This document shows, in pieces, positions 4,333 through 36,255 of a DNA stretch of 39,882 nucleotides (positions within the stretch are counted from its first letter, which is position 1; each line of letters starts with the position of its first letter). Made by a program: the position numbers and the translations under genes. The notes beneath the pieces are model-generated. The model saw only the letters and a program-made list of their open reading frames with translations. It made no database searches and was not told the origin of the DNA. The DNA comes from Bacteroidales bacterium (GTDB lineage: Bacteria > Bacteroidota > Bacteroidia > Bacteroidales > VadinHA17): assembly GCA_003141415.1 (NCBI GenBank), contig PLLX01000198.1, forward strand, positions 1 to 39,882. Direction: 5' to 3'.

Positions 4333-4432
4333 AATAATTAAATTGTTAGACATAAATGATAGGTATTGTATAATACCCTCAACGTTAATCATTCAGCCTA
4401 ATAAATCATGATAAAAAAGCAAGACTAAAGGG

Positions 4433-9790: not shown

Positions 9791-9841
9791 AATCAAAACC
9801 TTCATGGGAAAAATCAACAATCGACAATTCTTCTGAAATAG

Positions 9842-9969: not shown

Positions 9970-10004
9970 ATCATTTCCCCAGATAGAAATTTAAAATTAC
10001 AATC

Positions 10005-11186: not shown

Positions 11187-14100
11187 ATGAAAAAAAACAA
11201 ACCTTTTGGGGAATTGTTTTATTGTTCTCTGAAAAAAACTCTAAAAATAATGCGTAATACTTTAATCTTATTATTTATAGGAGTCCTACAAGTACACGCT
11301 ATTGACACCTATTCGCAGAAAACCAGGCTTTCCTTAAATTTTTCAGATACACAACTAACTAAAGTTCTCGACAAAATTGAATCGGAAAGCGAATTCTTCT
11401 TCCTTTACAATGAAAAACTACTCAACATTGACCGTAAAGTCAACCTCACTGAAAATGATCAATTAATTACTGTGATATTGGATGATTTATTTGCAGGTAC
11501 TAATGTGAAGTATACTATCATTGACCGCAAGATTATTCTTGCACCGGACTATTTGACGTCTCAACCCCAGCAAAAACAAATTACCGGCAAAGTTACTGAT
11601 GAATCCGGAAACCCATTGCCGGGAGCTAATATCCAGGTTGAAGGTACAACCACGGGTGTTATTTCTGATGCCAGCGGGAAATACTCAATTAATATACCAA
11701 ATGATAATGCCGTACTCATCTTCTCCTTTATAGGGTATAATGCCATGAAAGTATCCGCTACCGGGAAAACAACTATCGATATGACATTAGTCCCCAATAT
11801 AGCGAATTTGGAAGAAGTGGTAGTGATCGGTTATGGAACTGCAAAGAGAAGCGACTTGACGGGTTCGGTTGTGCGAGCTAACATGTCAACTTTAGATGGT
11901 TCTCCCAACGTTAGCGCGTTGGAGGCACTACATGGTACTGTTCCTGGGTTGAATGTAGGAGTGACTACTCAAGCTGGAGCTGACCCCTCTATATCTATTC
12001 GTGGACTCAACTCTCTTTCGGGTTCAACTTCTCCCCTGATTGTTTTGGATGGGATAATCTATAGAGGTAGCATTGTAGATATTAACCCAAAGGATATTGA
12101 GTCTATAGATGTCCTAAAAGATGCAAGTAGTACTGCTATCTATGGTTCGCAGGCTAGCAACGGCGTATTAATTATTACAACTAAAACGGCAAAAGAAATA
12201 TCTAAACCTGTCATTGAGTATAGTAGTTCTTTCTCTATTCAAAGTCTTACGAATAAGGATATGCTTCCTCTAGATAGTAAAGGGTTCATACAGCATCTAT
12301 CAGATGCGGAGTTGGCTAGTAGTAGAACAGGAACGGACATGCTTCAGCTCAATCCCAACTTTGATGTTACAAAATACTTTGGAGATGCAACACTTATTGA
12401 TGGATACAATAATGGTACTAACACGAATTGGTTTAAGCTGCTATCCAACAACTTACCCTACATACAAGACCATAACCTGAGCGTGCGAGGTAAAAATGAG
12501 CTAGCTAGTTACTTCCTTTCTGTAGGTTATACTGACCAGAAAAACCTAATAATAAACGATACCTACAAAAGGTACAGTGTCAGGGTGAATTTAGAAACAA
12601 AAATTACGAATTGGTTTAAGGTCGGAACTCAGTCATTCTTTACGGAGAGTAATATGTCTGGAGTTCAACCATCGTTTTCAAGTCTCATGCTTCTTCCACC
12701 TTTGTCTAGCCCATATGATGCGAATGGAAATCTACTAGTGCAAACCTATAAAGGTACTATCAATCCCTTGATAATGATACAAAATCCTGATTTAGACAAG
12801 CGCTATAACATATCGGGTAACTTTTATGCCGATATAAATATCCCGTTCATCAAAGGATTAAATTACAGGATGAATTTTTCTCAAAATTTGGTTATAGCCA
12901 ACGAGGATAACTTCAATCCTAATGCAAACACCCTCCTTGGTAGTGCTTATAAAAATAATAGTACCTACTATTCATGGACTTTGGATAATATAGTAACCTA
13001 TAAACGCGATTTTGGATTGCATGAAATCAATGCAACATTAGTGTATGGCGTTGAGAAACGGGAGTCTGATGCTACCACTGCTACAGCAAACAATTTTGTT
13101 AACCAAACTTTAGGCTACAACTATTTGGCAGCAGGAACAAGTAATTTAAATGTTTTAGGTTCAAGTGCATGGGAGGAGTCGAGCTTGTACTCCATGGGAA
13201 GGTTAGTTTACATGTACAACAACCGATATATTTTAACGGGAACTTTACGTCGCGATGGCTTTTCTGGATTTGGGGAGAAGAACAAAATAGGATATTTCCC
13301 CTCGGTTGCTTTGGCATGGAAGCTGAGCGAAGAAGACTTTGTGAAAAATAATGTATCCTGGATAAACAACCTAAAACTACGTCTGTCGTATGGTATTAAC
13401 GGTAATCGTACAGTAGGACGTTACGCGACACTAGCTCAGATGTCAACCCAAAATGCACTCGGTACAGGCTATTCTCCAATAGCTGGTGGATACTTGTATG
13501 GCGATGGTGCCTCTCCTGAGTTGACTCAAGCGGTGGCTACAATGTCTAACGCCAATCTAAAATGGGAAACTACAAATGCATTTAATACTGGATTAGATTT
13601 CAGCGTGCTGAAAAATCGCTTATTTGGAAATATTGAGTTTTACAGGACGGAAACCAAAAATTTATTGTATAATGTATCAATTCCTAACATCAATGGAATG
13701 TTTCCCGATGCGAGTGGAAATAATAGTATTACTGTAAATATAGGTAAATTGCAAAACATAGGTGAAGAGTTTAGCATTACAGGTGTTCCTGTTCGTACTT
13801 CCGATTTTGAATGGAACCTTACGTTCAATTTCTCTCGAAACCGAAACAAGGTTATTCGTATTTTAGGCATAATAGATCCCAATACTGGGAAAGAAGGCGA
13901 CCTAATATCCGAAAAAATTTTCATTGGAAAACCTTTCGGGGTATGCTATGATTACAAAATTATTGGCATGTGGCAAATTGCAGATTACAATAATGGAATA
14001 ATTCCCAATGGTTATACTTATGGAACCTACAAGGTTGCAGATCTAAATGGGGATGGTAAAATCTCGGCTGATGAAGACCGTATGATTTTAGGCTATACAG

Positions 14101-14582
14101 ACCCATCGTACAGATTCAGTATTCAGAATACCTTTACCTATAAAAATTGTTTGGATTTGAAAATCTTTATAAATTCAATTCAAGGAGGATCCGATTACTA
14201 CTATGGTCAACCAGCGAACTCAATTCCAAATCCGGACAACATGATCCAGAATAACCTATTTAAATTTGACTATTGGACACCCGAAAACCCCAACGCCAGA
14301 TATAGGCAGATTGGCTCCTATACTGAGGCATTAGGAGGAGGTTTCTCTCCCTATGTGCAGCGTAGCTTTATACGTTTGCAAGAGGTAACACTTTCCTATA
14401 AGTTGCCAACAGCATGGTTAGAAAAAATAAAGATCAATCAAGTTAAGGTGTTTGTTAGTGGCACAAACTTGCTCACATTTACCCATTGGGATGGATGGGA
14501 TCCTGAAACCGGCTCCGGATTAAACTATAATGGTTATCCTCTTATGAAAAACTATACTCTTGGTATTAATGTTGAATTTTAA
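11187..14582 (+). CDS. SusC/RagA-family TonB-dependent outer-membrane transporter with STN domain
   Basis: 1131 residues. After a Bacteroidota-type extended signal region (residues 1-39) comes an STN signalling domain at about 45-118. A carboxypeptidase-regulatory-like domain lies at about 131-205 (ITGKVTDESGNPLPGANI). EEVVVIGYGTAKRSDLTGSV begins the plug, and LKDASSTAIYGSQASNGVLI is a SusC hallmark. The rest is the 22-strand barrel, ending in NVEF with the terminal Phe. It imports oligosaccharides captured by SusD using TonB energy. The STN domain makes it a transducer that reports substrate binding to FecR. susD starts 13 bp after its stop. Confidence 0.96.
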   Translation: MKKNKPFGELFYCSLKKTLKIMRNTLILLFIGVLQVHAIDTYSQKTRLSLNFSDTQLTKVLDKIESESEFFFLYNEKLLNIDRKVNLTENDQLITVILDDLFAGTNVKYTIIDRKIILAPDYLTSQPQQKQITGKVTDESGNPLPGANIQVEGTTTGVISDASGKYSINIPNDNAVLIFSFIGYNAMKVSATGKTTIDMTLVPNIANLEEVVVIGYGTAKRSDLTGSVVRANMSTLDGSPNVSALEALHGTVPGLNVGVTTQAGADPSISIRGLNSLSGSTSPLIVLDGIIYRGSIVDINPKDIESIDVLKDASSTAIYGSQASNGVLIITTKTAKEISKPVIEYSSSFSIQSLTNKDMLPLDSKGFIQHLSDAELASSRTGTDMLQLNPNFDVTKYFGDATLIDGYNNGTNTNWFKLLSNNLPYIQDHNLSVRGKNELASYFLSVGYTDQKNLIINDTYKRYSVRVNLETKITNWFKVGTQSFFTESNMSGVQPSFSSLMLLPPLSSPYDANGNLLVQTYKGTINPLIMIQNPDLDKRYNISGNFYADINIPFIKGLNYRMNFSQNLVIANEDNFNPNANTLLGSAYKNNSTYYSWTLDNIVTYKRDFGLHEINATLVYGVEKRESDATTATANNFVNQTLGYNYLAAGTSNLNVLGSSAWEESSLYSMGRLVYMYNNRYILTGTLRRDGFSGFGEKNKIGYFPSVALAWKLSEEDFVKNNVSWINNLKLRLSYGINGNRTVGRYATLAQMSTQNALGTGYSPIAGGYLYGDGASPELTQAVATMSNANLKWETTNAFNTGLDFSVLKNRLFGNIEFYRTETKNLLYNVSIPNINGMFPDASGNNSITVNIGKLQNIGEEFSITGVPVRTSDFEWNLTFNFSRNRNKVIRILGIIDPNTGKEGDLISEKIFIGKPFGVCYDYKIIGMWQIADYNNGIIPNGYTYGTYKVADLNGDGKISADEDRMILGYTDPSYRFSIQNTFTYKNCLDLKIFINSIQGGSDYYYGQPANSIPNPDNMIQNNLFKFDYWTPENPNARYRQIGSYTEALGGGFSPYVQRSFIRLQEVTLSYKLPTAWLEKIKINQVKVFVSGTNLLTFTHWDGWDPETGSGLNYNGYPLMKNYTLGINVEF

Positions 14583-14594
14583 ATCATTCAGACA

Positions 14595-16283
14595 ATGGAA
14601 CAAATAAAATTCGTTATTCTTTTCATAATGCTTCTTTGCTTTAGCGCATGTAATGAAAAAGATTGGTTAAAAGAGACTCCTCTTGATTTCTATTCACCCG
14701 ACAATTCGTTTAACACCACTGCTCAATTTCAGCAGTCATTAAACGGTCTTTACGATCAGGTAAGAAATATGATTTGGAACACGAACGCTGATTTGGCAAT
14801 GGGATATTACTGTGGAACAGACTTCACATTTCCTGGATCAGATTATCCTGATGCCAAGTTGAATAACTATAGTGCTACTGTAACTCCAACGTGGGCACCG
14901 GCGCAATTGATGTGGACAACTGTATACCTGCAAATTGCAAATGCAAATGTTATTCTACATCGTTTAGACTTGCCAAACAAGGTTGGAGATGCCGATAAAA
15001 CTATCATCAAGGGACAAGCTCTTTTCTTTAGGGCATTTGCCTACCGCCTACTGGCAAATCTTTATGGAGGTGTACCTTTGATCACCGAAGAGATTGCAGC
15101 TCCACGAAGAGATTTTGTCCGTGCTACCCGTGAAGAGGTCTATGATCAATGCAGGATTGACTTAGAAGATGCAATAGGTATGCTTCCCGATATAGAAAAT
15201 GTAAAAGATGGTAAAATTAGCAAGCAAGCGGCTCAACACCTTTTGACCGAAATTTATATTTCTTTAAAAATGTATCCCCAGGCTATTAGTTCGGCAACAA
15301 ATGTAATTACTCATAATGGTATGGGGCTTATGAATTCGCGTTTTGGTTCAGGGAAGACTGTGCCTGGTGATGTTTACGGGGATTTATTCAGGGTAAATAA
15401 CCAAAATAGATCAAGCGGAAACACAGAGAGCATATGGGTTTTGCAGTACGACTATCTAAGTGCAGGCTCATCATATACTGTACCTATGGCCCGAGAGGCA
15501 ATCCCTTACTATTGGAATGCTATGGTTAATGCTATAGCAGGAGGTAACGTTGTTGCTTTTACTTCAATTACAGATGCAAAATGTGGACGAGGCATTGGAG
15601 CTATTCAAGGTACTTACTTCTACTTTAATACCCTTTGGGGCAATGACTTTAATAACGACATCAGAAACTCAAAATATAATATAATTAGAGATTTCCGGAT
15701 TGATAATCCTAAAGCCATAGGTTTTGGCAAATGGTTGGTTGCAGATGGCTATCTACATCCATCCGACACTATTAGACGTTGGTATCCTTTCTCAACTAAA
15801 GTAACACGTGTAGGCAACTTCCCGGTAGATTCGTATCTAAAGGATGCCAATGGGGCGCGTATTACGACAGCTCTTGGTGAGTACGAACTCAACACAGCCC
15901 TTGCTAACGGCTCGTATAGAGATGAATACATGTTCCGATTAGCAGAAACATATCTCCTGAGAGCAGAGGCATATCTAGATAATAACCAAACGGACAAAGC
16001 CGCAGATGATATTAATATGGTTAGAGTTAGGGCAAACGCAACTCCAGTTGATGCCTCAAAGGTTGATATAGATTACATTCTAGATGAACGATTGAGGGAG
16101 CTTAGTTATGAAGAACTGAGAATAGTAACTCTAACACGACTGGGGAAGGAAGTTGAGAGAACTCGAAAATATAACACTACCACTGGTAATAGAATCTTCG
16201 ACTACCAAAATTTATGGCCTATACCATATGGGGAAATAGAGAAAAATATAGATGCTACGTTGGAGCAAAATCCTGGATATTAA
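14595..16283 (+). CDS. SusD/RagB-family glycan-binding lipoprotein
   Basis: 562 residues. A lipoprotein signal ends at the lipobox-like LCFSAC with Cys19, so it is anchored on the outer membrane and caps the SusC barrel. The helical TPR scaffold and the C-terminal RagB domain are evident: ALFFRAFAYRLLANLYGGVPL, ETYLLRAEAYLDNNQTDKA and NMVRVRA. The ending QNPGY is typical. It is translationally linked to susC by a 13-bp gap. Ligand specificity cannot be read from sequence. Confidence 0.95.
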   Translation: MEQIKFVILFIMLLCFSACNEKDWLKETPLDFYSPDNSFNTTAQFQQSLNGLYDQVRNMIWNTNADLAMGYYCGTDFTFPGSDYPDAKLNNYSATVTPTWAPAQLMWTTVYLQIANANVILHRLDLPNKVGDADKTIIKGQALFFRAFAYRLLANLYGGVPLITEEIAAPRRDFVRATREEVYDQCRIDLEDAIGMLPDIENVKDGKISKQAAQHLLTEIYISLKMYPQAISSATNVITHNGMGLMNSRFGSGKTVPGDVYGDLFRVNNQNRSSGNTESIWVLQYDYLSAGSSYTVPMAREAIPYYWNAMVNAIAGGNVVAFTSITDAKCGRGIGAIQGTYFYFNTLWGNDFNNDIRNSKYNIIRDFRIDNPKAIGFGKWLVADGYLHPSDTIRRWYPFSTKVTRVGNFPVDSYLKDANGARITTALGEYELNTALANGSYRDEYMFRLAETYLLRAEAYLDNNQTDKAADDINMVRVRANATPVDASKVDIDYILDERLRELSYEELRIVTLTRLGKEVERTRKYNTTTGNRIFDYQNLWPIPYGEIEKNIDATLEQNPGY

Positions 16284-16556: not shown

Positions 16557-18722
16557 ATGAACAAAATAAATATTTATTTTTTGCTGTTGCTTTTAGGGTT
16601 AAGCACCAATGGGCATTCTGAGCAATCATTGCGTACCACCATCAGCTTGAACGGGAGGTGGTCAATTGCCAAAACAAGTGGTGAACTTCCGCAAAACTAT
16701 AGATCTACAATACCAGTTCCTGGGCTGGTTGACATGGCCATGCCACGCGTAGATAGTGTGGGCACGCTGTACAACAGTAAAGAAAGTAAGGGTAATTGGT
16801 ACTGGCATAGGCGTAGCTTCACCTTGAAGGAAAACAATTTCGACATCATTCAACTCAAGGTATTCAAGGCAATGTACTACACTAAAGTCTATTTAAATAA
16901 GCATTTGGTAGGTGAAAATGCCTACTGCTTTACTCCTTCGTATTACGACCTAAAGCCCTATCTTAATGCTGCCGGACAGCCGAATGAAATAGTGATTGGG
17001 GTGGGAACAATTCTCATGCTTCCCGACACGATTCACAACGGGAAAGATGGAGAAAAGTTGTACAGCACCCCTGGTATATACGACAACGTTGAGCTAACCC
17101 TAGCGAATAAGCCATTCATCTCGAATGTACAGGTAGCTCCTGACTTAATAAACGAACAGGTAAGGGTGGTGGCAGAAGTGCAGACAGAAAACAGCTCATC
17201 CTTTGACTTGAAGTACGAGGTAAGCGAGCTGGCATCAAAGAAAGTTTGCTCGCAGGGCGTGGCAAAAGCAAAGCTTACAAAAGGTGAGGACGGTTTGTCC
17301 ATCCTTGATTTTGAGGTAGCCATGAAGGGCGCAAAGCTTTGGTCTCCCGAATCACCATTTATGTACAAGCTAACCCTTGAGACTTCGGGAGATAAAAAAG
17401 AAACGCAATTTGCCATGCGTTCATTTCGATTCGATACATTAAAAAAATGTGCCTTGTTAAATGAAAAACCATACTATTTACGAGGCACAAATATTTGTAT
17501 ATTCCGCTTCTTTGAAGACCCCTCAAGGGGAGACCTACCGTGGAATAATAGTTGGATTATCAAAATAAATCAAAAGATAAAAGGCATGTACTGGAATGCT
17601 ATGCGCTACAGCATTGGCTTCCCCCCCGAAAGGTGGTATGAGGTTGCAGACAGTTTAGGCATTCTCGTGCAGGATGAGTACCCCCTATGGGGGGCGCAAT
17701 CTAGCGTAAAAGACCGCCATTTTGCCCATGAGTTTACACGGTGGATGCGCGAACGATGGAACCATCCATCAGTTGTAATTTGGGATGCCCAGAATGAAGG
17801 GCTCAGTAAGGAGTCAGGCAAGGCTATTGAGCTCTCGCGGAAGCTAGATCTATCCAACCGTCCATGGGATAATGGATGGTCTGAGCCACAATCTCCTACT
17901 GACCCGATAGAGTCGCATCCTTACCTGTTTAATTATTTTAAAAGGAATTCAACTAAGCCGCTACCTGAGGAAGGATACCTGAAGCTATTTTTCGGTGTTG
18001 TACGCAACCCAAACAATGACCCAAATGACCGCTCCGCTACGGTATCTAAAAAGGGCATTGTTTACAGCCCACTACAACCTCCTCCACTTACTTTTAACAA
18101 CCCTTCTATTATCAATGAGTATGGCTACTTATGGATCAATAGAGATGGATCATCCGTCCCACAAACGGATTCGATTTATGTAAAACTCTGGGGTAAAAAT
18201 CTTTCGAATACGGATAGAAGAACCATTTACGCTAAAAATATAGCAATGTTGACCGAATACTGGAGAGCCTACCGTAAGGCTGCCGGCGTACTTTACTTCT
18301 GCGGCTTGGGGTATTCGCGTCCAGCTCCCCCGCGTGGTGAAACATCTGACGCATGGATTAACATTGAGAAGCTGCAGTACGAACCCCAATTCTACAAGTA
18401 TGTTCGTTCTTCCTTTGCTCCGGTTGGATTGATGATTGAAGCCTGGGAAAAATCTTATAAATCCGGTACTAGTTTATTGTTGCCTGTGCATGTTTTAAAC
18501 GATCTGGGAGAAACATATAAAGGAACTATAAAGATAATTCTACAAAAAGAAGGGAAGGTCTACGCTAAAGCCCAAGGGAAAGTAAAAGTTGATGCTTATG
18601 GCAAGCAAATTGTGAATTTTAATCTTGATTTGCCAAAGTCAAAAGGAGTCTATGAACTGAAAGCGCAGATTCAGCTCAAGGGAGAACCTGTTACCAGTTA
18701 TAGAGATTTAACGATTGAGTGA
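16557..18722 (+). CDS. Glycoside hydrolase family 2-like enzyme, periplasmic
   Basis: 721 residues with a Sec signal peptide (about 1-21) and no lipobox. A jelly-roll domain (about 25-190) contains GNWYWHRRSFTL and YLNKHLVGEN. An Ig-like domain precedes a TIM barrel from about 310. The acid/base is most likely E414 in WDAQNEG and the nucleophile E521 in IINEYGYLW, both in typical GH2 context. A beta-sandwich tail follows. Family members cleave beta-galactosides, beta-glucuronides, beta-mannosides and others, and I cannot choose. RGTNICIFRFFEDP replaces the usual RG.N.H motif, which may alter the -1 site. It lies downstream of susD on the same strand. Confidence 0.88.
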   Translation: MNKINIYFLLLLLGLSTNGHSEQSLRTTISLNGRWSIAKTSGELPQNYRSTIPVPGLVDMAMPRVDSVGTLYNSKESKGNWYWHRRSFTLKENNFDIIQLKVFKAMYYTKVYLNKHLVGENAYCFTPSYYDLKPYLNAAGQPNEIVIGVGTILMLPDTIHNGKDGEKLYSTPGIYDNVELTLANKPFISNVQVAPDLINEQVRVVAEVQTENSSSFDLKYEVSELASKKVCSQGVAKAKLTKGEDGLSILDFEVAMKGAKLWSPESPFMYKLTLETSGDKKETQFAMRSFRFDTLKKCALLNEKPYYLRGTNICIFRFFEDPSRGDLPWNNSWIIKINQKIKGMYWNAMRYSIGFPPERWYEVADSLGILVQDEYPLWGAQSSVKDRHFAHEFTRWMRERWNHPSVVIWDAQNEGLSKESGKAIELSRKLDLSNRPWDNGWSEPQSPTDPIESHPYLFNYFKRNSTKPLPEEGYLKLFFGVVRNPNNDPNDRSATVSKKGIVYSPLQPPPLTFNNPSIINEYGYLWINRDGSSVPQTDSIYVKLWGKNLSNTDRRTIYAKNIAMLTEYWRAYRKAAGVLYFCGLGYSRPAPPRGETSDAWINIEKLQYEPQFYKYVRSSFAPVGLMIEAWEKSYKSGTSLLLPVHVLNDLGETYKGTIKIILQKEGKVYAKAQGKVKVDAYGKQIVNFNLDLPKSKGVYELKAQIQLKGEPVTSYRDLTIE

Positions 18723-18740: not shown

Positions 18741-19777
18741 AACGTGTTGTGCAATTAAGATGCCAACGCATATTTTAAGTGATTTATTGGTTTATTGTTC
18801 TTTGAATTAATGTATTGCAAGAGCGTAACAGCAGTAATCTTAGATAAGATACGAACAGATAACCCCATTATTGTTTTTGCATAATTGCGCCTGAGCATAA
18901 ACTTGTCGCATAATTGTGAAAACAAAGTTTCAATCCGTTTTCTCATTCGCTTAAAGATTGCCGGATATGGTTGTCTTTCCTGATTTGCTCTTTTGGGAGT
19001 TTGCAACTTTACCTGGCATGAATTAAACAAATCTAACTGGTAAGTGCTTGATAAATATCCCTTATTAGCAATAAGTGTGCACATGGACAATCCAGATTTT
19101 TTGACTTCTGATAAATAAAGGACATCATGAACGCTGGCTTTTGTTAAATCCATGCTTTGAAAGATCCCCCTGACAGAAGTTACCAGATGAAGCTTGTCCC
19201 CGTAATAATAAGATTTGCTTACTGCTGAATAACCTTTATCCGGAGCTGTTTCAAAGCACTCTTTACATATTTTACTTCGTTTTTCTCTTGCAATCTGACA
19301 AACTGGAACAGGAATAGAATCAACAAGATAAACATCTTCAGATTCATTAAGTCTATCAGCTAAACATTGATTTAGCTGCTCAATAAAGGGATGAAGATGT
19401 TTGAGTCGACGATTGAAATTACTACTGTCAATTAATCTTGGAAAATCATTTTTATGATCACTTTTAAGTTTTTCCCAAAAGTAGTTTTCACTATCAATCT
19501 CTATTGATTCTCCGGTAACTGACAAAGCAATTATCTCACAATCTGATAGTTTTGGCTTGTTTGGATATATAAAGAAGTTATCAGACTTATTTAAACGTCT
19601 TTAAAAACCAATTTGGTAATGTTTAAGAACTTGTCGAAATTTGTTTTTAAGTTATGCATATCTGAAGTGAATTTGTGGTGAATTACTCTTCTAATATACT
19701 GTATACCAGTATTATGCATAACTTTTTTCATTATAGTTATTAACTTTTTTATTTAATTTTCAACCGCATAACACGTT
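18741..19777 (-). mobile_element. IS982-like insertion sequence
   Basis: About 1037 bp. The left end AACGTGTTGTGC (18741-18752) and the right end GCATAACACGTT (19766-19777) are inverted repeats with one mismatch. The element carries a single transposase gene on the minus strand. It separates the GH2 gene from the UroD and GH27 genes, so transcription from upstream may no longer reach those. Confidence 0.75.
18755..19659 (-). pseudogene. IS982-family transposase with a frameshift
   Basis: The N-terminus starts at an ATG at 19659 and reads MHNLKTNFDKFLNITKLVF, stopping at a TAA at 19591-19593. The remainder resumes in another frame near 19600 as NKSDNFFIYPNKPKLSDCEI and continues to 18755. One extra T in the GTTTAA run would rejoin the two parts into a protein of roughly 300 residues, the usual IS982 length. 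DDE-core residues are visible at VDSIPVPVC and in KGYLSS. The frameshift is either inactivating or a sequence error. Confidence 0.8.
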
Positions 19778-19924: not shown

Positions 19925-21004
19925 ATGAATTCAAAAGAACGCATGTATGCAGCCTTGCAAAAAAAACCAGTGGATAGAATTCCTATATTTATGTGGTATC
20001 ACCCGGTAACTTTTCAAAAGCTTATTCATGCTCTTGAAATACCACCAGATTTTTTTGATCTGGTTATGTGTAATGATGTTAAACAGAAATGGGTTGGTAA
20101 TAATCATGCCATGGAAGGTATTACCCATGAGAACGATGGAGAAGGCCATATCGATCAATGGGGAATTGAATGGGTGCAAGAAGGAGGGTTCAATCAAATC
20201 CGTAAAAGTCCTCTAGAAAATGCATCAGAAAAAGAAATCTTCAACTACAAATTTCCGGTCGAGCATATTGAACAGCTTTTAAAAAGTATGGATAAGATAA
20301 TCCCCTTTTCAAAAGAATACTTTATAGGATGTGATATCTCTCCTTGCCTTCTTGAATTGTTGTTCCGGATTCGCGGAATGGAAAATACATTTTTTGATAT
20401 TCTGGCTTCTCCTGATATCTCAAAAGATTTGCTTTTGAAAGCTGCTACTTTTGCCATTGAAATCGGAGAAAAAGCTTGCAATAAATTTCCACTCGACTGG
20501 TTATGGACAGGCGATGATGTGGGTGGTCAACTATCTATGATGCTCAGTCCTGAGTTATGGCGCGATAGGATTAAACCTCATTTGAAAAACATATTTGATG
20601 TCGGCAAAAGGAAGGGATTATTGGTTGCCTATCACTCTTGTGGCGCCATTCGTCCCATAATTCCAGATTTGATTGAAATAGGATTAGACGTGCTTAATCC
20701 TATTCAATGTAACTGCCCTGGGATGAATCCTATTGACTTAAAAAAGGAATTTGGCAGTAAACTATCATTCATGGGTGGAGTAGATACTCAGCATTTGTTA
20801 CCCAATGGAACTTCAGATGAAGTTTATGAGGAAACTTTGAAATTAATTGAAAGTATGACTGATGATGGCGGAGGCTATATATTAGCGGCATCACACGCCA
20901 TTCCTCCTGAAACGCCAATTGAAAACATATTTGCAATGTTTTTGGCAGCAGGAGTAAGCAGTGAAGAAATATATGATAAGGCAGCTGATGTCCGAAAAAA
21001 GTAG
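19925..21004 (+). CDS. Uroporphyrinogen-decarboxylase-fold protein, MtaA/CmuA-like
   Basis: 359 residues from the ATG at 19925 (MNSKERMYAALQKKPVDRIP), the canonical family start; a TTG at 19898 would add nine residues. This is not a haem-pathway HemE. It resembles the broad UroD-like group that includes corrinoid methyltransferases MtaA and CmuA. The H-x-C metal motif is H237-S-C239 (YHSCG). The third metal ligand, a Cys in MtaA-type enzymes, aligns with H324 in ASHAIPPETP. No corrinoid protein is encoded nearby. It lies 45 bp upstream of the GH27 gene, so both are likely co-transcribed. Function unknown; methyl or C1 transfer from a modified sugar is one possibility. Confidence 0.82.
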   Translation: MNSKERMYAALQKKPVDRIPIFMWYHPVTFQKLIHALEIPPDFFDLVMCNDVKQKWVGNNHAMEGITHENDGEGHIDQWGIEWVQEGGFNQIRKSPLENASEKEIFNYKFPVEHIEQLLKSMDKIIPFSKEYFIGCDISPCLLELLFRIRGMENTFFDILASPDISKDLLLKAATFAIEIGEKACNKFPLDWLWTGDDVGGQLSMMLSPELWRDRIKPHLKNIFDVGKRKGLLVAYHSCGAIRPIIPDLIEIGLDVLNPIQCNCPGMNPIDLKKEFGSKLSFMGGVDTQHLLPNGTSDEVYEETLKLIESMTDDGGGYILAASHAIPPETPIENIFAMFLAAGVSSEEIYDKAADVRKK

Positions 21005-21049
21005 TTTTTTAGGGTGCCCTAAAGTAAAACAATCAAATAAATTGTATCG

Positions 21050-22441
21050 ATGAAAAAGTTGCGTCATTTTAATCATTTAATTTTCCTTGCCAGTGTATCG
21101 TTGTTGATTTCTTGTGCCGAAACAGGTTCAAAACATTCGGATAATCCACCCTTAAGCAATTCTTTTTCTGAAATTGCAAAACGACCTCCAATGGGCTGGA
21201 ACAGTTACGATTGTTTTGGTGGAAACGTCACTGAACAGGAAGTAAAGGCAAATGCCGATTACATGTCTGAAAAACTGAAACAATATGGATGGGAATATGT
21301 AGTGGTCGACTTCCTTTGGTATTGCGACGACCAAGATTCCTGGGAAAAGTTCGCCAACCGCCGCCCGGCACAGCATATTGACGCATATGGCCGGCTTATT
21401 CCTTCCGAAAAATTGTATCCTTCATCGGCTGAGGGAAAGGGCTTTAAACCACTTACTAATTATATCCATAGTAAAGGATTGAAATTTGGAATCCACATCA
21501 TGCGCGGGATTCCTCGTCAAGCCATTGAACAGAATACTCCAATAAAAAACTCCACTGCAAAAGCTGCCGCAATAGCTAATTTACCCGATACTTGTGTTTG
21601 GTATGGTGGCCTTACCGGAGTAAACATGACTAAAAAAGGCGCACAGGAATATTACAATTCGTTATTTGAGCTATATGCCTCTTGGGGAGTGGATTACATC
21701 AAGGTAGACGACATTGTTGATCAATATCATGCCGATGAGATTGAAGCAATTCACAAAGCCATCCTTAATTGTGGCAGACCAATTGTATTAAGTCTGTCTC
21801 CTGGACCGGCATTTATCGGAAATCCAAAACATTTACGCGATAATGCTAACTTGTGGCGTATTTCAGGCGACTTCTGGGATAAATGGTCATCGTTGAAACG
21901 TCAATTAGAGCTTTGCCGCGATTGGGCTCCGTTGGTAACCGAAGGTCATTGGCCCGATGCAGACATGCTTCCATTGGGAAAACTCAATATTCGCACCGTT
22001 TCAAAAAATAGAAAACCACATTTGACCAACTTTACAAAAGATGAACAATATTTTTTAATGACCCTATGGTCAATCTTCCGATCGCCTTTGATGTTTGGTG
22101 GGAATATGCCTGAAAACGATGAATTTACGCTCTCTTTGATTACCAATAAAGAAGTGATCCGTATTAACCAAAATTCAAAAAATAACAAAGAGATTTTTTT
22201 TGTGAATGGGGTGAGCATCTGGACTGCGGATGACAAAGAAGATTCTGTAAAATACATGGCCATATTGAATATCAATGATACACCACAAACCGTTGTCCTT
22301 CCGCTAGAAGTTGCTGGCATTAAGGGGAATCCAACAGTTAAGGACTTATGGGCCAAAACCTATTTGACAAAAAAAGACAAAGGGTTTGAAATAACGCTGG
22401 CTACGCATGGAATAAGTTTGTTATCTTTTAAAACCAATTAA
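21050..22441 (+). CDS. Glycoside hydrolase family 27 (alpha-galactosidase-like) lipoprotein
   Basis: 463 residues with a lipoprotein signal ending LLISC (Cys22). The GH27 opening PPMGWNSYDCFGG is clear. The nucleophile is D220 in YIKVDD and the acid/base D274 in WRISGD. The C-terminal antiparallel beta domain (about 375-463) is present. The family removes terminal alpha-galactose, alpha-N-acetylgalactosamine or beta-L-arabinopyranose with retention. It lies downstream of the UroD-like gene on the same strand and is the last gene of the plus-strand locus before an IS. Lipidation suggests action at the cell envelope. Confidence 0.93.
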   Translation: MKKLRHFNHLIFLASVSLLISCAETGSKHSDNPPLSNSFSEIAKRPPMGWNSYDCFGGNVTEQEVKANADYMSEKLKQYGWEYVVVDFLWYCDDQDSWEKFANRRPAQHIDAYGRLIPSEKLYPSSAEGKGFKPLTNYIHSKGLKFGIHIMRGIPRQAIEQNTPIKNSTAKAAAIANLPDTCVWYGGLTGVNMTKKGAQEYYNSLFELYASWGVDYIKVDDIVDQYHADEIEAIHKAILNCGRPIVLSLSPGPAFIGNPKHLRDNANLWRISGDFWDKWSSLKRQLELCRDWAPLVTEGHWPDADMLPLGKLNIRTVSKNRKPHLTNFTKDEQYFLMTLWSIFRSPLMFGGNMPENDEFTLSLITNKEVIRINQNSKNNKEIFFVNGVSIWTADDKEDSVKYMAILNINDTPQTVVLPLEVAGIKGNPTVKDLWAKTYLTKKDKGFEITLATHGISLLSFKTN

Positions 22442-22553
22442 CTGTAGGCGTAATTATTCATCATCATAAAATTAGTTTTAAAGGTTTTATAGAGCACCCA
22501 TGTAGTTGATTTTTTACCTGTAAATAAAGCCTTAACAATTTTTAATAGTCTAC

Positions 22554-24232
22554 TTAGGGTTTGCTGAAAAAGTAAATACATGCATGTATAATATTAATAA
22601 TCAACGTTATATGTTAATATCTTTAGCTTAAGTAAATAGTAAAAATGCAAATTAAAACATAAATTCCGATAAAAATATTTGCATTTATGGTAAAGTATAA
22701 TTCAGAACGGCAGTTGACAATTGAAGAGTTAAAAACTTCTTTTCAAACTTCATTACTAGCTGATAATCGGTGGGTTAAGCTTAGCAAAGTGGTTCCGTGG
22801 GATAAATTTGCTTCAGCTTATATGTCCATGATGACTGTTGATTTTGGACGACCGGGTATTTCTCCACGGATTGTTCTTGGGGCCCTAATCATAAAGCACC
22901 TTGAAAAACTGGATGACAGAGGTGTGATCGCTGCAATACAGGAAAACCCCTATATGCAGTTTTTTATTGGACTGAAGGAATTTACTACTCAGCCTGTGTT
23001 TGATCCTTCACTCTTTGTAGATATCAGTAAACGGGCCGGGAATAAAGTTTTCGATTCTCTCAATGTTGAACTGATAAAATCAGTTAGCAAAAAAGATGAT
23101 AAAAAACTGAACCGGAAAGGAAAAGATAAAAACAACACTCCCCCCAAAAAATAAAGGGAAAATGCAGGCAGATGCCACCGCTGCTGATCAGTATATTACC
23201 TACCCAACCGACAATGGAATTTTAAATCAAAGTCGCAAACAGTGCGAAAAATTTATCGACAAGCTCTATGACCTGAGTGGTAAAGAAGGCCAAAAGTCCA
23301 GGACCTACCGACGGAAAATAGATAAGGCATACTTGGATTACTCAAAGAAAAAGAAGAAAAGAGAGGCCACACATCGGAAGATGACAAGAAAATTATTAGA
23401 ATGCGTTAATCATGATATCAAGCAGATAAACAATATGTTGGATGTTTTTGAATCGAAAGGATCCCGTTTTCCACTAAAGCACCTGGAACAACGGATGTTT
23501 TGGGTAATCAACACGGCCTATGCCCAACAGAAACTTATGTACGATTCAAAAACACATAGTTGCACCGATAGAATTGTAAGCATATTCCAGCCTCATGTAA
23601 GACCAATCCCAAGAGGCAAGACGAAAGCGCAGATAGAGTTTGGCTCAAAATTGGAAGTTAGTCTTGATAAAGGTTTTGCAAGAATAAATACATTCAGTTG
23701 GGATGCTTATCATGAAGGAGGTGATTTGATTAAACAAGTTGAATCATACAAGGAATTACATGGACATTATCCCGAACTGGTTCAGGTAGACAAGATGTAT
23801 GCTACAAGAGAAAACAGAAGCTGGCTAAAGGAAAGGAATATCAGAATAACTTCACTATCTCTTGGCCGCAGAAAAAATAAAGAGAATGAGACCTATTATC
23901 AGAAACGAAAACGTAGAAAGGAAGCAGCCGAAAGAAATCATATTGAAGGTAAGTTTGGGCAAGGGAAAAATGGATACAATCTGAATGAAATAAGGGCGAG
24001 ACTAAAGAATACTTCAGAGAGTTGGGTAGCATATATCTTTTTTATAATGAACTTAATACTCTATGAGAAGGGATATTCTTTTGGCTCAATTTTGGCAAAG
24101 GTTAGTATAATGGGCGTAAGAATTATGGAAAGCCTAGAGCAAATCTTGGTCAAAGTTTTTCCCAAGGAAGGTTACCAGTCCTATAAAATTGAGGTAAAAT
24201 ATTTATAAGATTAACTTTAACAGCAAACCCTA
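22554..24232 (+). mobile_element. IS5-superfamily insertion sequence
   Basis: About 1.68 kb. The left end TTAGGGTTTGCTGAAAAAGT (22554-22573) and the right end ACTTTAACAGCAAACCCTAA (24214-24233) are near-perfect inverted repeats. It lies between the convergent plus-strand PUL and minus-strand operon. The contents are one transposase gene split in two frames. A related solo end lies at 30747-30770. Confidence 0.8.
22687..24208 (+). pseudogene. IS5-like DDE transposase, split by a frame change
   Basis: The first part (22687-23154, 155 residues) holds the DUF772-type N-terminal domain and ends KDKNNTPPKK. The second part (ATG at 23162 to 24208) starts MQADATAADQYITYPTD, which contains the first catalytic Asp. 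It continues with D in QVDKMYATR and E in HIEGKFGQGKNGYN. In full-length relatives one frame reads straight through PPKNKGK into DATAADQ. The break lies in a C6A6 tract at 23140-23151 and is equivalent to one extra base. Programmed shifting, a real indel or a sequencing error are all possible. Confidence 0.85.
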
Positions 24233-24275
24233 ATTAATTTTTTCTTTGTACTTTCATCTTGAAACTCTGTTGTTC

Positions 24276-25697
24276 TTATTTTTGTTTATTATCTGTTCTT
24301 CCAATTTTTAAAAAGGCTTCCACTTCTTCAAGGCTTTTCCCTTTGGTTTCAACAAGGAATTTCCTGATGATGAAAAATCCGACAAAGCAAATAATTCCAT
24401 ATATCCAGAAAGTCCATGCTGTACCAATTCCATCATTAAGAATCGGGAAAGTATAACTCAGAGTGAAAGATCCGAGCCAGAGGGTAAAAACCGCAATTGA
24501 CATGGCCGCTCCCCTGATCCGGTTTGGAAACATCTCGGATAACAATACCCAAACGACAGGTGCCAGCGAGAAAGAATAGAAAGCAATGGCCAAAACCGTT
24601 AATATCAGTACATGAAACCCGGTAAAATGCAGCAGGTAGCTTAACCCGATTAATCCATAACTCAACGACAGTCCCAGCGAACCTATTAAAAGCAAGATTT
24701 TCCTACCGTATTTATCAATCGTACCAATGGCTACAAATGTAAACATCATCATTACGGTGCCTGTTATGACGATGTTAAGCATCACTCCCTTTAAATCGAA
24801 GCCGGCAGCTTTAAAAATATCATCGGCATAATAAAAAATGGTATTGATGCCACACCATTGCTGAAAGAAAGCCAGGAACATCCCTAGTCCCAGAATTTTC
24901 AACATTCCTTTATCGAATAATTCCTGAAAATGGACCCTTCCAATCTCATTCTTAAGAGTTGCTTCTATTTGAATCAACTCTTCTCGGGCATATTGTTCTC
25001 CACCAATCTTTTTCAATACCTTAAATGCCTTTTCACTTTTACCGCTTTTCACTAACCAGCGGGGACTTTCGGGTATCACCATCGAAAATATAAAAAACAA
25101 TATGGCCGGAATTGCACAGGCTGCAAACATCCAACGCCATCCAATTCTCCCGTTCCAACTTTCAAGAATTTGAATGATAGTTGCATTATGGGGCATTTCG
25201 TGCGATACGGAAATCAGCCAGTTCACCAATTGGGCGACCAGTACACCAATCACAATAGTTAACTGGTTTATGGAAACAAATCGTCCACGAACAGAGGCGG
25301 GTGAAACTTCGGCAATATACATGGGCGACAGGTTTGAAGCCAGACCAATGCCAACACCACCGACAATACGATAGATGACAAATGTGGTAAACTGATTGGC
25401 CAATCCGGCACCAATGGCCGAAATGGTAAACACCATACCAGAAAGAAGCATCAGTCGTTGTCGTCCGTAGCGGTCAGAAAATGCGCCACTGAATACGGCT
25501 CCGATTAAACAGCCAACCAAAGCAGAACTGGTAGCCCAGCCTTTCATGGCTGGTGTAGTCAGGTTAAAGAAGGGTTCATAAAAGGGTTTTGCCCCGCCAA
25601 TCACGACCCAGTCGTAACCAAACAGAAAACCACCCATAGCTGCGACTAATGATATCAGCCAGATGTATTTGTAGTTATAAGAATTGATTTGTTTCAT
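24276..25697 (-). CDS. MFS sugar-porter family transporter
   Basis: 473 residues with 12 predicted membrane helices in the inner membrane. Sugar-porter signatures are present: GGFLFGYD in TM1, DRYGRQR between TM2 and TM3, PESPRWL in the central loop, FQQWCGINTIFYY in TM7 and VETKGKSLEEVE at the end. It resembles XylE-type proton symporters. It starts one base after the UroD-like gene ends, so the two are tightly coupled, and it is the last gene of the minus-strand operon. It should import a monosaccharide released by the locus; the sugar is unknown. A paralog lies at 36256. Confidence 0.93.
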   Translation of the reverse strand: MKQINSYNYKYIWLISLVAAMGGFLFGYDWVVIGGAKPFYEPFFNLTTPAMKGWATSSALVGCLIGAVFSGAFSDRYGRQRLMLLSGMVFTISAIGAGLANQFTTFVIYRIVGGVGIGLASNLSPMYIAEVSPASVRGRFVSINQLTIVIGVLVAQLVNWLISVSHEMPHNATIIQILESWNGRIGWRWMFAACAIPAILFFIFSMVIPESPRWLVKSGKSEKAFKVLKKIGGEQYAREELIQIEATLKNEIGRVHFQELFDKGMLKILGLGMFLAFFQQWCGINTIFYYADDIFKAAGFDLKGVMLNIVITGTVMMMFTFVAIGTIDKYGRKILLLIGSLGLSLSYGLIGLSYLLHFTGFHVLILTVLAIAFYSFSLAPVVWVLLSEMFPNRIRGAAMSIAVFTLWLGSFTLSYTFPILNDGIGTAWTFWIYGIICFVGFFIIRKFLVETKGKSLEEVEAFLKIGRTDNKQK

Positions 25698-25698
25698 A

Positions 25699-26973
25699 TC
25701 AGAAATCTGATTTAATGCCCCGTGCGTCGTTTACTCCGCGAAACATGGCCAGAATATTTTCCACCTGTAGGTTGATTAGGATATTGTGAATTGAATTAAA
25801 TACATACCCTCCGCCTTCACTGAAAATATCGATGCGCTCACGAACTTCGCGATAAACTTCTTCCGGTGTTCCGAATGGCAATGTCTTTTGCATATCAAGC
25901 CCGCCACCCCAAAATACCAGATCTTTGCCGAATTCTGCCTTCAGCCTTTTGGCATCCATTCCGGTAGTCGAAACCTGTATGGGATTCAATACATCAAAGC
26001 CCGCTTCAATCAAGTCGGGAATCAGGTCGTAAATTGCTCCGCAATTGTGAATAAAAATTTTCCAGTCAGTCAGTTCATGAATTTTGGTATTGATAGCATT
26101 TTGGAATGGTTTAAACAACGAGCGATAGGTTTCCGGATCAAGGAACAGGCTGTTCTGAGTACCGAAATCAGTCCCACTGACGAAAACCACCTGAGCATGA
26201 TGGCCTATGACTTTGACCAGCAATTCAACATTCTTCAGGGCTATCTCACATTGTTTTTCGAATACCTGATAAATATAATCAGCGCGCATAATCAGCGACA
26301 TATACCATTGCTGAATATCACGAATGCGCTTCGTTTGTTTACGCCATGTGGCCGGCACCAGGGCAATGTCGCCAAAAGCCATTCCCTGAATCGTTATGTA
26401 GATACCATAATCGGTTTCTTCATAAAGTTTCCGAGTAGTTTGGGCATAATATTTCAGATCCTTTTCTGACGAAATCCCAAAATCGTCAGCATTGTCCTGC
26501 AGCTTTAAGCGTTCGTCATCGATTGGTTCCTGCCTCATTATAGCGTCAAAAAAGAACCTTGATTCAAGCATTTTTGCACTGGGCAGGACGGATAAATCAC
26601 CTTCCGGATAGATCAGGAAAGCGCCATTTTCATCATTTGTGTAATTAAAATTACCAGATACCAAAATTTCCGTTCCATCAGGCATTGTAAATGGTTTCCA
26701 ATTCTCATTCCTGAACTCGAACAAGGTGGCCGAGCCGGGAACTCCTACAACATCAAGATGTAGCTTTTTAGGGAGTGGTTCTTCCACTTCGCCCAGCATA
26801 TGGTAGGGCTCAATAATCATTACTTTCTCTTTGTATCCCGGCAACGAAGCCTGATTAAAGTAATGCAATGCTGTTGCACCAATGCCTGTCTGTCCACCTG
26901 CTCCCATATCTACGCACAAACGGTTGGGCATTTCATGACTTAATGTCTTGATCAGTTGTTCTCTGGGTGTCAT
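25699..26973 (-). CDS. Second uroporphyrinogen-decarboxylase-fold protein
   Basis: 424 residues, ATG at 26973 (MTPREQLIKTLSHEMPNRL). It belongs to a longer subgroup than the one at 19925, with an insertion of about 60 residues in the N-terminal half. H309-N-C311 (FIHNCG) matches the H-x-C metal motif, and H396 (FNSIHNILINLQVENI) stands where MtaA-type proteins have the third ligand Cys. It sits 14 bp after the lectin-like remnant and one base before the MFS gene. Operon position with a sugar transporter and hydrolase suggests a role in sugar processing in the cytoplasm. No haem gene is near. Confidence 0.82.
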   Translation of the reverse strand: MTPREQLIKTLSHEMPNRLCVDMGAGGQTGIGATALHYFNQASLPGYKEKVMIIEPYHMLGEVEEPLPKKLHLDVVGVPGSATLFEFRNENWKPFTMPDGTEILVSGNFNYTNDENGAFLIYPEGDLSVLPSAKMLESRFFFDAIMRQEPIDDERLKLQDNADDFGISSEKDLKYYAQTTRKLYEETDYGIYITIQGMAFGDIALVPATWRKQTKRIRDIQQWYMSLIMRADYIYQVFEKQCEIALKNVELLVKVIGHHAQVVFVSGTDFGTQNSLFLDPETYRSLFKPFQNAINTKIHELTDWKIFIHNCGAIYDLIPDLIEAGFDVLNPIQVSTTGMDAKRLKAEFGKDLVFWGGGLDMQKTLPFGTPEEVYREVRERIDIFSEGGGYVFNSIHNILINLQVENILAMFRGVNDARGIKSDF

Positions 26974-30400: not shown

Positions 30401-30731
30401 GATAATCGTCAATATGGAAAGCAAAGTTCCGGAAAACATCTTCGCCTCGTCGGGAAAAAGGTTCAGGCAAAACACCAAAGCCGGTTATCCTGATGGATTG
30501 CTTGACAGGGTAGTCTTTCTTGCCAAAATCAAAAGTGACGTTTTGGGTTTTCCCAGGAAGGAGCAAAAATCCAGAGTCGGATTGGCTTACGAACATGACC
30601 TGCCGGTTCTCAATGGAGATATCTTTTGACCCTGTTGAAAGCTTGGTGCAGCCGAAATTTGACAGCAGAGTAGCAAGGATTGTCATCCTGAAAAGATTCA
30701 ACAAACTTTTTTTAAGTGGCAAATTATTCAT
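27492..30731 (-). CDS. Large lipoprotein, candidate clan GH-A glycoside hydrolase
   Basis: 1079 residues with a hydrophobic signal ending SNFGC (Cys28), a weak lipobox. The first 400 or so residues look beta-rich (CBM or Ig type). A central region from about 440 to 720 resembles a TIM barrel. Two Glu stand out: E633 in WLGAEQMYG and E698 in HINTEDGLW, spaced like acid/base and nucleophile of clan GH-A enzymes. From about 820 to 930 an AIAFLGWN...KKGKTLLLTGAHL segment resembles the glutamine-amidotransferase-like domain of GH42. A beta-type tail follows. I cannot place it in a named GH family. It heads the minus-strand operon and is probably exported to the cell surface or periplasm. Confidence 0.65.
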   Translation of the reverse strand: MNNLPLKKSLLNLFRMTILATLLSNFGCTKLSTGSKDISIENRQVMFVSQSDSGFLLLPGKTQNVTFDFGKKDYPVKQSIRITGFGVLPEPFSRRGEDVFRNFAFHIDDYLDSTMTYNEKYSLVFMGNGGKLERNVFYRISEDELKSFKGKKIKVEIPVKTNKLNIPENGYLKLELQLYRKKADRHPDDIYDDADQIRVIQIPTNHPEWFVFSDDVEIPEDIACILFRLASKDISGQCHFGTPSLTYASTSFKLLPFQPYQKDRKNWIGENLSTKEWPEFEMSLNGNTFFTGKVFDRASNVGDFEVELPEPIVGKAELNIRLKDGFPSRYPYAIKTVELLETSARDFEVVAIPQFVHANKKFALLVEINRPGTKLSIKTSKNISATENEKQFDETGLYTLTFTAVDASLNQFISITDGTRKIKCAINQIIAQKNDRVYISTGDDVYIDKNFRKFSDYIVWYVREGIGNAFCWRPSEQWSDVKVANPEFYKRSLKILNDLQMPYSLMIEGRTITGRNINPEESWMEGPLYMGRQAHENDGGYYYWTNFRWEWLYSDLAAKYRPQGGIFAKNRPIRNEKGIFVFYDPFKLKNMEEGPKYFVDNLSKAKGPSIRHTGPSTMFRYLFQAGYEWLGAEQMYGPEEVIMSSIRGACRAYGKDDYGTHLATQWASGPFDAPEHATRLFLSLAISYIHGATHINTEDGLWNTETGIDRFSQSGQEHIKAQRDMFRYIQTHERRGNLVIPVALFQGRNDAWKCFGRNNVWSQKNEEWNFGPAEESFDLLNVFYPGNRLQPIYKFPTPKSPQGWYSSTPYGLIDLLPIEAPQEILDNYKAIAFLGWNTYSDEDFKKLFNFVKKGKTLLLTGAHLNTELIHNKPVVFPKKDKVLKELLGANYKIATQPYENKVGEGKVIFFPEKKYPVDASIKDRYMEALKEIGANAIANEHQKGWIENSPNIEFAAWDWNDLNHRTIYLLNIDWWSDSIVHQATLTLGNQRFKVDVRRNYLETITVSNGIAVMPDSMTTDILGMEIKGNRCTFAIQTTGKDQLKIFCENQSEIKIIKIEKPGIHAIEVVLSEKNRNYSY

Positions 30732-34430: not shown

Positions 34431-34515
34431 AATTAATTATTATACATTTTGGTGCAAATATAAAAATCCCACTTGTAAAATCAAGCACATGCAATATTTT
34501 ATATTCTTTAAAAAA

Positions 34516-34542
34516 TAATTATATCAGATCTTGATATAATTA
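34516..34542. promoter_or_regulatory. Perfect 27-bp palindromic operator candidate
   Basis: TAATTATATCA (34516-34526), GATCT, then its exact reverse complement (34532-34542). It is 47 bp before the kinase start and 86 bp from the regulator start. NagC-type regulators bind AT-rich dyads of similar size, so this is the probable site for the adjacent ROK protein on both divergent promoters. Confidence 0.65.
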
Positions 34543-34588
34543 GAATTTTATCTAGATTTGCTGAATAATTTTAATTCTATTAAAAAAA

Positions 34589-35527: not shown

Positions 35528-35539
35528 AAAATTGACACA

Positions 35540-36127: not shown

Positions 36128-36255
36128 GAATTAGGGCAATCCAGATTAATTGGGAAGAGACGGGTAAACTTTATTTATCATCTTACCTGTTTCTGCTTCA
36201 ATGAATCTGTGTACAAACGGATTAATAGAAAAAATATTATTTATTATTTAAAAAC

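Follow-up and report, generated by a model that had tools for sequence, protein, structure and literature searches.

Two UroD-fold proteins in a Bacteroidales glycan-utilization locus as candidate methyltransferases for corrinoid-dependent demethylation of sugars

Two UroD-fold proteins and their proposed role

The 39,882-nucleotide contig PLLX01000198.1 of a Bacteroidales bacterium (GenBank assembly GCA_003141415.1), the whole of which is referred to here as the window, carries two genes encoding proteins of the UroD fold, UroD-A and UroD-B, within a glycan-utilization locus. Judged from related gene clusters, the two proteins probably help bacteria that live without oxygen to demethylate sugars of plants or algae by way of a vitamin B12 protein. 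Methyl ethers are present on many plant and algal sugars. In its specific form, the proposal is that UroD-A and UroD-B act as the methyltransferase I (MTI) components of a corrinoid-dependent O-demethylation of methylated sugars, with the gene for the corrinoid protein lying elsewhere in the genome, and this reading of the sequences is held tentatively, at slightly under an even chance. The linkage to a corrinoid protein appears fairly supported by sequence comparison, more strongly for UroD-B than for UroD-A, and we infer that a methylated sugar is the methyl donor.

A sequence-only reading of this DNA had described one UroD-like gene ahead of a glycoside hydrolase family 27 (GH27) gene on the plus strand and another coupled to a sugar transporter gene of the major facilitator superfamily (MFS) on the minus strand. 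The open reading frames (ORFs) and strands agree with this arrangement, as do the spacings of 45 bases between UroD-A and GH27 and of 1 base between UroD-B and the transporter gene.

19925..21004, plus strand: UroD-A, 359 amino acids from the ATG, UroD fold, H237-x-C239...H324 (ORF, Pfam URO-D, MtaA alignment, structure model)
20633..20641, plus strand: codons H237-S-C239 of UroD-A (computed from the ATG)
20894..20896, plus strand: codon H324 of UroD-A, aligned with the MtaA Cys (phmmer alignment)
21050..22441, plus strand: GH27, 463 amino acids, 3' of UroD-A (Pfam Melibiase_2 and Melibiase_C)
24276..25697, minus strand: sugar porter (MFS), one base after UroD-B (Pfam Sugar_tr, 377.5 bits; TIGR00879 sugar porter subfamily, over the cut-off)
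25699..26973, minus strand: UroD-B, 424 amino acids, UroD fold, H309-x-C311...H396 (ORF, Pfam URO-D, alignment, structure model)
25786..25788, minus strand: codon H396 of UroD-B, in the column common with H324 of UroD-A (alignment)
26041..26049, minus strand: codons H309-N-C311 of UroD-B (computed from the ATG)

An in-frame TTG located 27 bases upstream of the ATG is an alternative start for UroD-A.

Sister clusters join UroD genes to a corrinoid and tetrahydrofolate module

Gene neighbourhoods were compared for 50 UroD-B-type genes of at least 405 amino acids (the B set) and 44 UroD-A-like genes (the A set). Judged by gene content and order, locus L092 offers the strongest evidence for a corrinoid-linked sugar role. 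On one strand it carries a UroD gene (8726-9982), a corrinoid protein, a methyl-tetrahydrofolate (methyl-THF) methyltransferase (262.2 bits to NF005719, cut-off 259), a methylenetetrahydrofolate reductase (MTHFR)-like protein, a lipoprotein, a sugar porter, and a GH2 gene that is cut off by the contig end, and the order on one strand indicates that the sugar cassette and the one-carbon (C1) module form one cluster there. L083 and L085, the other B-set loci with a nearby corrinoid gene, encode a corrinoid protein, an MtrH-like methyltransferase, and a member of the formate-THF ligase cluster (assigned by Pfam on L085 alone), and L085 additionally encodes an MTHFR-like protein, a MetH-activation-like protein, and a second UroD. 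In the A set, corrinoid genes lie near the UroD genes of L127, L149, and L150, the last two of which share the order galactokinase, UroD, corrinoid protein, second UroD, CobW, MetH-activation-like protein, and RACo, as named by Pfam on one member of each kind.

The better phylogenetic tree held 103 of the 105 UroD proteins; L120, pieces of which are 76 to 79% identical to UroD-A, was left out for a run of N. UroD-B falls within a clade of 49 rows with 100% support, in a 6-row group, and the UroD proteins of L083, L085, and L092, 43 to 47% identical to UroD-B, fall in the 40-row sister group. The corrinoid-linked reading of UroD-B is drawn because this fully supported clade holds the three corrinoid-linked cassettes. 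UroD-A stands on a long branch; its clade of 25 rows (98% support) includes proteins of L144, L149, L150, L127, L124, and L142, and with this long branch and no enrichment in its neighbourhoods, its corrinoid-linked reading is less secure. A close sister relationship between UroD-A and the genes of the galactokinase clusters, suggested by a fast tree, was weakened by the better tree and set aside.

UroD-B-type genes adjoin sugar porters and GH2 genes

UroD-B-type genes appear from their neighbourhoods to be tied to sugar porters and GH2 enzymes, a supported conclusion. A same-strand sugar porter of a single protein cluster adjoins 26 of the 50 B-set genes and none of the 44 A-set genes, and nine of the 26 pairs are spaced by -4 to +1 base, with the window pair at 1. 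A member of one GH2 cluster lies within three genes on the same strand in 17/50 B-set loci. Pfam domains were surveyed in 75 neighbours per set, sampled randomly out of 177 (B) and 135 (A) proteins of at least 120 amino acids without N, with the window and UroD genes excluded, and were compared with 64 control proteins from 12 arbitrary stretches. Sugar_tr occurred in 12 of the 75 B-set neighbours versus at most one of the 64 controls, since the listing for the controls gives the 25 leading families out of 116 (Fisher p 0.0004 for no control match, 0.003 for one). The survey of carbohydrate genes around both subgroups that the sequence-only reading had suggested is borne out for the UroD-B type near sugar porters and shows no clear enrichment for the UroD-A group.

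Locus L012, a cassette in the genome that carries the window, encodes a GH2 that scored 1292 bits with the BT4151 exo-beta-1,4-galactosidase model, whose cut-off is 1500, and a GH35 gene ahead of this GH2. In L073, 108 bases separate the end of a GH27 gene from a UroD-B relative that follows it on the same strand. Farther downstream of this pair, past an AraC gene (L073:12848-19085), are genes for a class II aldolase, a fucose-isomerase-like protein, an FGGY kinase, and a mannitol-dehydrogenase-like protein, which are possibly a route for the released sugar.

Family assignment and fold

Both proteins are predicted to have the UroD fold and not to be HemE-like. URO-D is the sole Pfam match of each, above the cut-off and in the C-terminal half (UroD-A, 87.8 bits; UroD-B, 54.7 bits). 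At an E value of 0.001, NCBIfam returned methyltransferase models alone, four for UroD-A and three for UroD-B, all well under their cut-offs, the best MtaA-type scores being 68.9 and 39.8 bits, respectively, versus a curated cut-off of 244; the hemE model was absent among these families for both proteins. The motif RQAGR, which we take to be the N-terminal substrate motif of HemE, was found in 0/105 UroD proteins, including UroD-A and UroD-B. HemE identity was rejected on the absence of the model and of the motif. The AlphaFold model of UroD-B has a pLDDT of 68 and a pTM of 0.74, and that of UroD-A, with 57 and 0.64, is of low confidence. The best PDB match of both models by Foldseek is MtaA of M. 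mazei (E values of 1.6e-11 for UroD-B and 3.4e-7 for UroD-A), followed by human UROD, with generic TIM barrels such as sugar epimerases and isomerases low in both lists. Structure prediction had been proposed as a check, and in both models the match to MtaA stands ahead of that to UROD.

Within the UroD family, phmmer found no PDB relative of UroD-B. In CmuA, a UroD domain and a corrinoid-binding domain are fused, and this type was ruled out for UroD-A and UroD-B, for which Pfam gave URO-D only and no corrinoid-binding domain. The nearest named relatives of UroD-B belong to metagenome-assembled genomes under the names uncultured Bacteroidia (76%) and Tangfeifania diversioriginum (80%); together with SusD, these relatives suggest Bacteroidota. 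Among viral contigs, no relative of UroD-A was found. The A1 profile, searched at 1e-70 in 395 genomes of the phylum, matched the genome of the window and one other, G326, in which the longest ORFs lie on the opposite strand.

The H-x-C...H triad

The H-x-C residues that had been read from the sequence (H237/C239 and H309/C311) are exactly placed, and the assignment of H324 and H396 to the site of the MtaA Cys ligand also stands: H324 of UroD-A falls on this Cys in the phmmer alignment with M. mazei MtaA (4ay7), and H396 of UroD-B is placed by the column that it has in common with H324. All three triad columns are common to UroD-A and eight B-type proteins. Among 104 UroD-family proteins longer than 250 amino acids, from 93 loci and not de-duplicated, 79 have H-x-C...H, 14 have H-x-D...H, 3 have H-x-C...C, and 8 have other patterns. 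Of 353 well-filled columns, that of the first His (kept in 102/104) ranks second in conservation and that of the last His (93/104) ranks 12th; the middle position holds Cys in 87 proteins and Asp in 17. By this conservation, the pattern is judged not to be due to chance.

The genome of the window encodes seven URO-D proteins. H-C-H triads occur in UroD-A, UroD-B, the gene on contig C206 that adjoins a corrinoid protein, and a gene on C260; the others are H-C-C (C197), H-C-N (the second C206 gene), and H-D-G (C60). Kountz and Balskus (PMC10418091) associate His-Cys-Cys with S- and Se-methyltransferases. The replacement of Cys by His, as seen in the alignments, points away from thiol substrates, and MtaA-type thiol transfer is disfavoured by this replacement together with the missed family cut-offs. 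A His as the third ligand may favour an oxygen substrate. A UroD with F-x-C...C adjoins a corrinoid protein and RACo in L149 and L150 (L149:8511-9866 and L150:4527-5885); the L149 protein ends in a thioredoxin-like stretch (24.1 bits versus a Pfam cut-off of 24.8), which is perhaps a thiol methyl acceptor.

Corrinoid and C1 genes in the genome of the window

Contig C61, the window, belongs to a genome (G000) of 5.26 Mb in 279 contigs, rated 82% complete. The sequence-only reading had seen no corrinoid protein, which holds for the window ORFs that were read and does not hold for the genome, where two stand-alone corrinoid proteins are encoded on C181 and C206; a candidate for the partner unseen in the window therefore exists in trans. 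On C206, the third H-x-C...H UroD of the genome is followed by the corrinoid protein. Close to the start of C181 (L160:762-7596), one strand carries genes for a corrinoid protein, an MtrH-like protein, an MTHFR with DUF5981, a MetH-activation-like protein, an FGGY kinase that scores best with the xylulokinase model (308 bits, cut-off 380), and a xylose isomerase whose score passes the cut-off. This module has no UroD of its own, and farther along are ORFs that by eye resemble arabinose catabolism. The MetH-activation-like protein could replace RACo. Twenty loci with this module were compared, the locus on C181 and 19 picked among the higher-ranking MtrH hits (not a random sample), with Pfam run on one member of each cluster. 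The kinase and isomerase clusters are each present in 10/20 (9/19 besides C181), GH3 in 6/20, and GH116 in 5/20.

The UroD paralogue of C60, which has H-x-D...G, lies near GH10 and GH115 genes (L009:9442-19001), with a LacI-like regulator and a transporter named by eye. GH115 is associated with glucuronoxylan and 4-O-methyl-glucuronic acid, so the context is of a glucuronoxylan type and this acid could be a methyl source; with the H-x-D...G triad, nothing firm is drawn from it.

Co-occurrence across genomes and evidence against the proposal

In a family sample of 117 genomes, UroD-A-like proteins (1e-20) were found in 73, UroD-B-type proteins (1e-60) in 58, corrinoid proteins (1e-40) in 94, and MtrH-like proteins (1e-50) in 73. 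A corrinoid protein is present in 67/73 genomes with UroD-A-like proteins versus 27/44 others (p 0.0002), in 53/58 genomes with UroD-B-type proteins versus 41/59 others (p 0.005), and in 73/73 MtrH-like genomes. The six UroD-A-like genomes of the family without one are all less than 90% complete. In an order sample of 198 genomes, 27 have UroD-A-like proteins and 35 a corrinoid protein (best E value of 1e-40 or lower), two of these in long frames (G018 and G111); stand-alone corrinoid proteins occur in 21/27 UroD-A-like genomes versus 14/171 others (p 4e-14). The corrinoid link holds better than the THF link in these sequence counts, and many UroD genomes outside the genus of the window are without this MtrH type.

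Several observations weigh against corrinoid-dependent sugar demethylation. The genomes are related, and the p-values above therefore overstate the evidence. A corrinoid gene lies within three genes of only 3/50 B-set and 3/44 A-set genes, and none was found near UroD-A or UroD-B or among the window ORFs read. Six UroD-A-like genomes of the order (G029, G045, G052, G136, G143, and G164) have no corrinoid match at 1e-40, and of these G029, G136, and G143 are 92 to 100% complete. MtrH-like proteins are not significantly associated with either type in the family, occurring in 49/73 UroD-A-like genomes versus 24/44 others (p 0.24) and in 40/58 UroD-B-type genomes versus 33/59 others (p 0.18), and the 24 UroD-A-like genomes without this MtrH type would need another methyl acceptor. 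RACo (PF14574) has no match in the 82%-complete assembly of G000. Formate-THF ligase is represented in that genome by a C-terminal piece only (G000:C31:33684-33782; L231:1495-1662; 33 positions, 24 bits, below the cut-off), which lies within a 55-amino-acid ORF in the contig interior and is apparently a remnant, and a methyl-to-formate route was not found there. The 75 A-set neighbours, within two genes on either side, include MFS (3), GH2_N (3), BNR_2 (3), and galactokinase (2), with no clear carbohydrate enrichment, and UroD-A has no supported close sister in the better tree. His is also not among the replacements for Cys that PMC10418091 names for O-methyltransferases.

Proposed mechanism and alternative explanations

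In the proposed scheme, SusCD would take up the glycan, the GH2 and GH27 enzymes would trim it, and the porter coupled to UroD-B would move the products inward. In the cytoplasm, the His-Cys-His triad of each UroD would hold a metal at which the methyl ether of the sugar binds, and the UroD would pass the methyl group to the Co(I) corrinoid protein of C181 or C206. The MtrH-like methyltransferase would then transfer the corrinoid-bound methyl group to THF for oxidation by a MetV/MetF-like reductase, and the demethylated sugar would enter ordinary catabolism. The metal, the direction of transfer, and the service of several UroDs by one corrinoid module are presumed. GH27, galactokinase, and the galactosidase-like GH2 give a hint of galactose, and the xylose genes beside the C1 module give a hint of pentoses; galactose or O-methyl-galactose as the substrate is a guess and the weakest part of the scheme. 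A wider view, in which polysaccharide loci of Bacteroidota took in a His-Cys-His (or His-Asp-His) branch of UroD proteins as interchangeable sugar O-demethylases, each specific to its substrate and all feeding a common corrinoid/THF hub, allowing oxygen-free use of methoxy sugars as a source of carbon and C1 units, is possible and somewhat more doubtful.

The removal of a methyl or other C1 group from a modified sugar had been suggested by the sequence-only reading. Demethylation of sugars is the best-supported reading on the MtaA fold match, the C1 sister clusters, and the porter and GH2 ties of the B type, with carbohydrate enrichment lacking for the UroD-A group. The corrinoid might instead take its methyl group from a methoxylated aglycone or a methyl glycoside that is imported by the porter and freed by the hydrolases. 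Known MTI proteins of the superfamily act on methoxylated aromatics or haloalkanes (PMC13222342), and the sister clusters show a porter and a hydrolase without showing which part bears the methyl group; the sugar porters, SusD, the galactokinase of L149 and L150, and the xylose genes by the C1 module are contextual evidence for the sugar itself, and such a donor is rather unlikely. An enzyme independent of corrinoid, namely a metal-dependent lyase, isomerase, or decarboxylase of the UroD fold acting on a sugar or sugar acid, would account for the scarcity of corrinoid genes at most loci and for the three near-complete UroD-A-like genomes without a corrinoid match, and sugar epimerases and isomerases do appear in the Foldseek lists, if low and as generic barrels. 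Against it stand the best fold match, which is a methylcorrinoid methyltransferase, the sister clusters in which the corrinoid and THF module is complete, and the co-occurrence in the order, so that it is unlikely, though far from negligible.

The remaining explanations are weaker. That the two are passenger genes decaying in a stretch rich in insertion sequences (IS) would suit the several transposase-like ORFs (by eye) around and between them and the unique changes of UroD-B at 16/114 invariant columns, the most among nine relatives (next, 14/112), but both frames are intact, the triads are kept, and the ratios of nonsynonymous to synonymous substitution (dN/dS) of UroD-B versus its relatives in L072 and L073 are 0.09 and 0.05, with synonymous sites near saturation; decay is improbable. 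A role in thiol or selenol methylation, on the pattern of MtaA or of the Mlps in type 1 mlp clusters, is very improbable: MtaA belongs to the same superfamily and is the best fold match, but His occupies the position of its Cys, His-Cys-Cys is the triad tied to sulfur and selenium transfer (PMC10418091), the MtaA-type NCBIfam scores are far under the cut-off, and the neighbours are sugar rather than sulfur genes. The Pfam URO-D match alone would suit uroporphyrinogen decarboxylases, whose probability is practically negligible with no hemE model and no RQAGR motif.

Relation to known systems

UroD-superfamily O-demethylases and dehalogenases that depend on corrinoid (MtvB, OdmB, VdmB, MtoB, and CdmBCA) combine a UroD MTI, a corrinoid protein, and a methyl-THF methyltransferase (PMC13222342). 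The same parts are present in L092, L083, and L085 and, except for the UroD, in the genome of the window, whereas the window UroDs have no partner genes nearby. In that source, the donors are methoxy-aromatics or haloalkanes, and CdmB and a Moorella enzyme are reported without zinc; here the context is one of sugar genes and the triad is H-x-C...H. Three-component UroD systems are thus known for methoxy-aromatics and haloalkanes, and a sugar-linked H-x-C...H version would, by its sequence features, be new. The MtaA and MtbA methylcobamide:coenzyme M methyltransferases are alike in fold and in the H-x-C part of the metal site and unlike in the third ligand (Cys there, His here) and in scores far under the curated cut-offs. 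Type 1 mlp gene clusters (PMC10418091) include UroD-superfamily methyltransferases, corrinoid proteins, and activases but in many cases no THF methyltransferase, and their Mlps are almost invariably His-Cys-Cys and accompanied by sulfur or selenium genes, in contrast to the His-Cys-His triads and sugar genes here; a cluster of this type, with Mlp2, Mlp3, a corrinoid protein, an activase, and His-Cys-Cys, was rejected, as the window ORFs and triads do not match it.

Marine bacteria demethylate 6-O-methyl-galactose with a P450 that yields galactose and formaldehyde oxidatively, according to PMC10033563; the outcome proposed here, a free sugar from a methoxy sugar, is the same, and the UroD route would proceed without oxygen. 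Anaerobic demethylation of methyl-galactose is given as an unsolved step in PMC12316285, and no description of demethylation of sugars by corrinoid or UroD proteins was found among the papers listed from the literature searched, most subscription papers lying outside it. If the proposal is true, the UroD genes are candidates for an anaerobic step of this kind, the seven paralogues of the genome would be explained, and a family easily mistaken for haem synthesis would gain a testable function.

Other features of the window locus

From left to right, the locus has the order sigma factor, FecR-like, SusC-like, SusD, GH2, transposase-like ORF, UroD-A, GH27, and IS1182-like transposase (two ORFs), to the right of which the sugar porter, UroD-B, and a 1079-amino-acid protein lie on the minus strand.

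Left end of the locus: sigma factor and FecR-like ORFs (named by eye)
11187..14582, plus strand: SusC-like ORF, 1131 amino acids (named by eye)
14595..16283, plus strand: SusD (Pfam SusD_RagB and SusD-like_3)
16557..18722, plus strand: GH2 of the same glycan locus (Pfam)
1968-4392, 7253-8239, 18755-19525, 22687-24208, and 30954-31610: transposase-like ORFs that interrupt the locus, IstAB-like, IS1182-like, and others (by eye)

The presence of a UroD gene in both halves of the locus had been taken to argue against chance, an argument weaker than stated with IS elements intervening. The IS1182-like transposase (22687-24208) sits between the halves and the ORF at 18755-19525 lies to the left of UroD-A, and with transposases between and beside the halves, UroD-A and UroD-B need not share one origin. 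The 1079-amino-acid protein adjoining UroD-B (27492-30731, minus strand) has no match in Pfam at 0.01 or in NCBIfam at 0.001 and may be an undescribed glycan enzyme. A second sugar cluster at 33258-37644 encodes an ROK protein on the minus strand and, on the plus strand, ROK kinase-like and SIS-domain proteins (Pfam) and an MFS protein (by eye).

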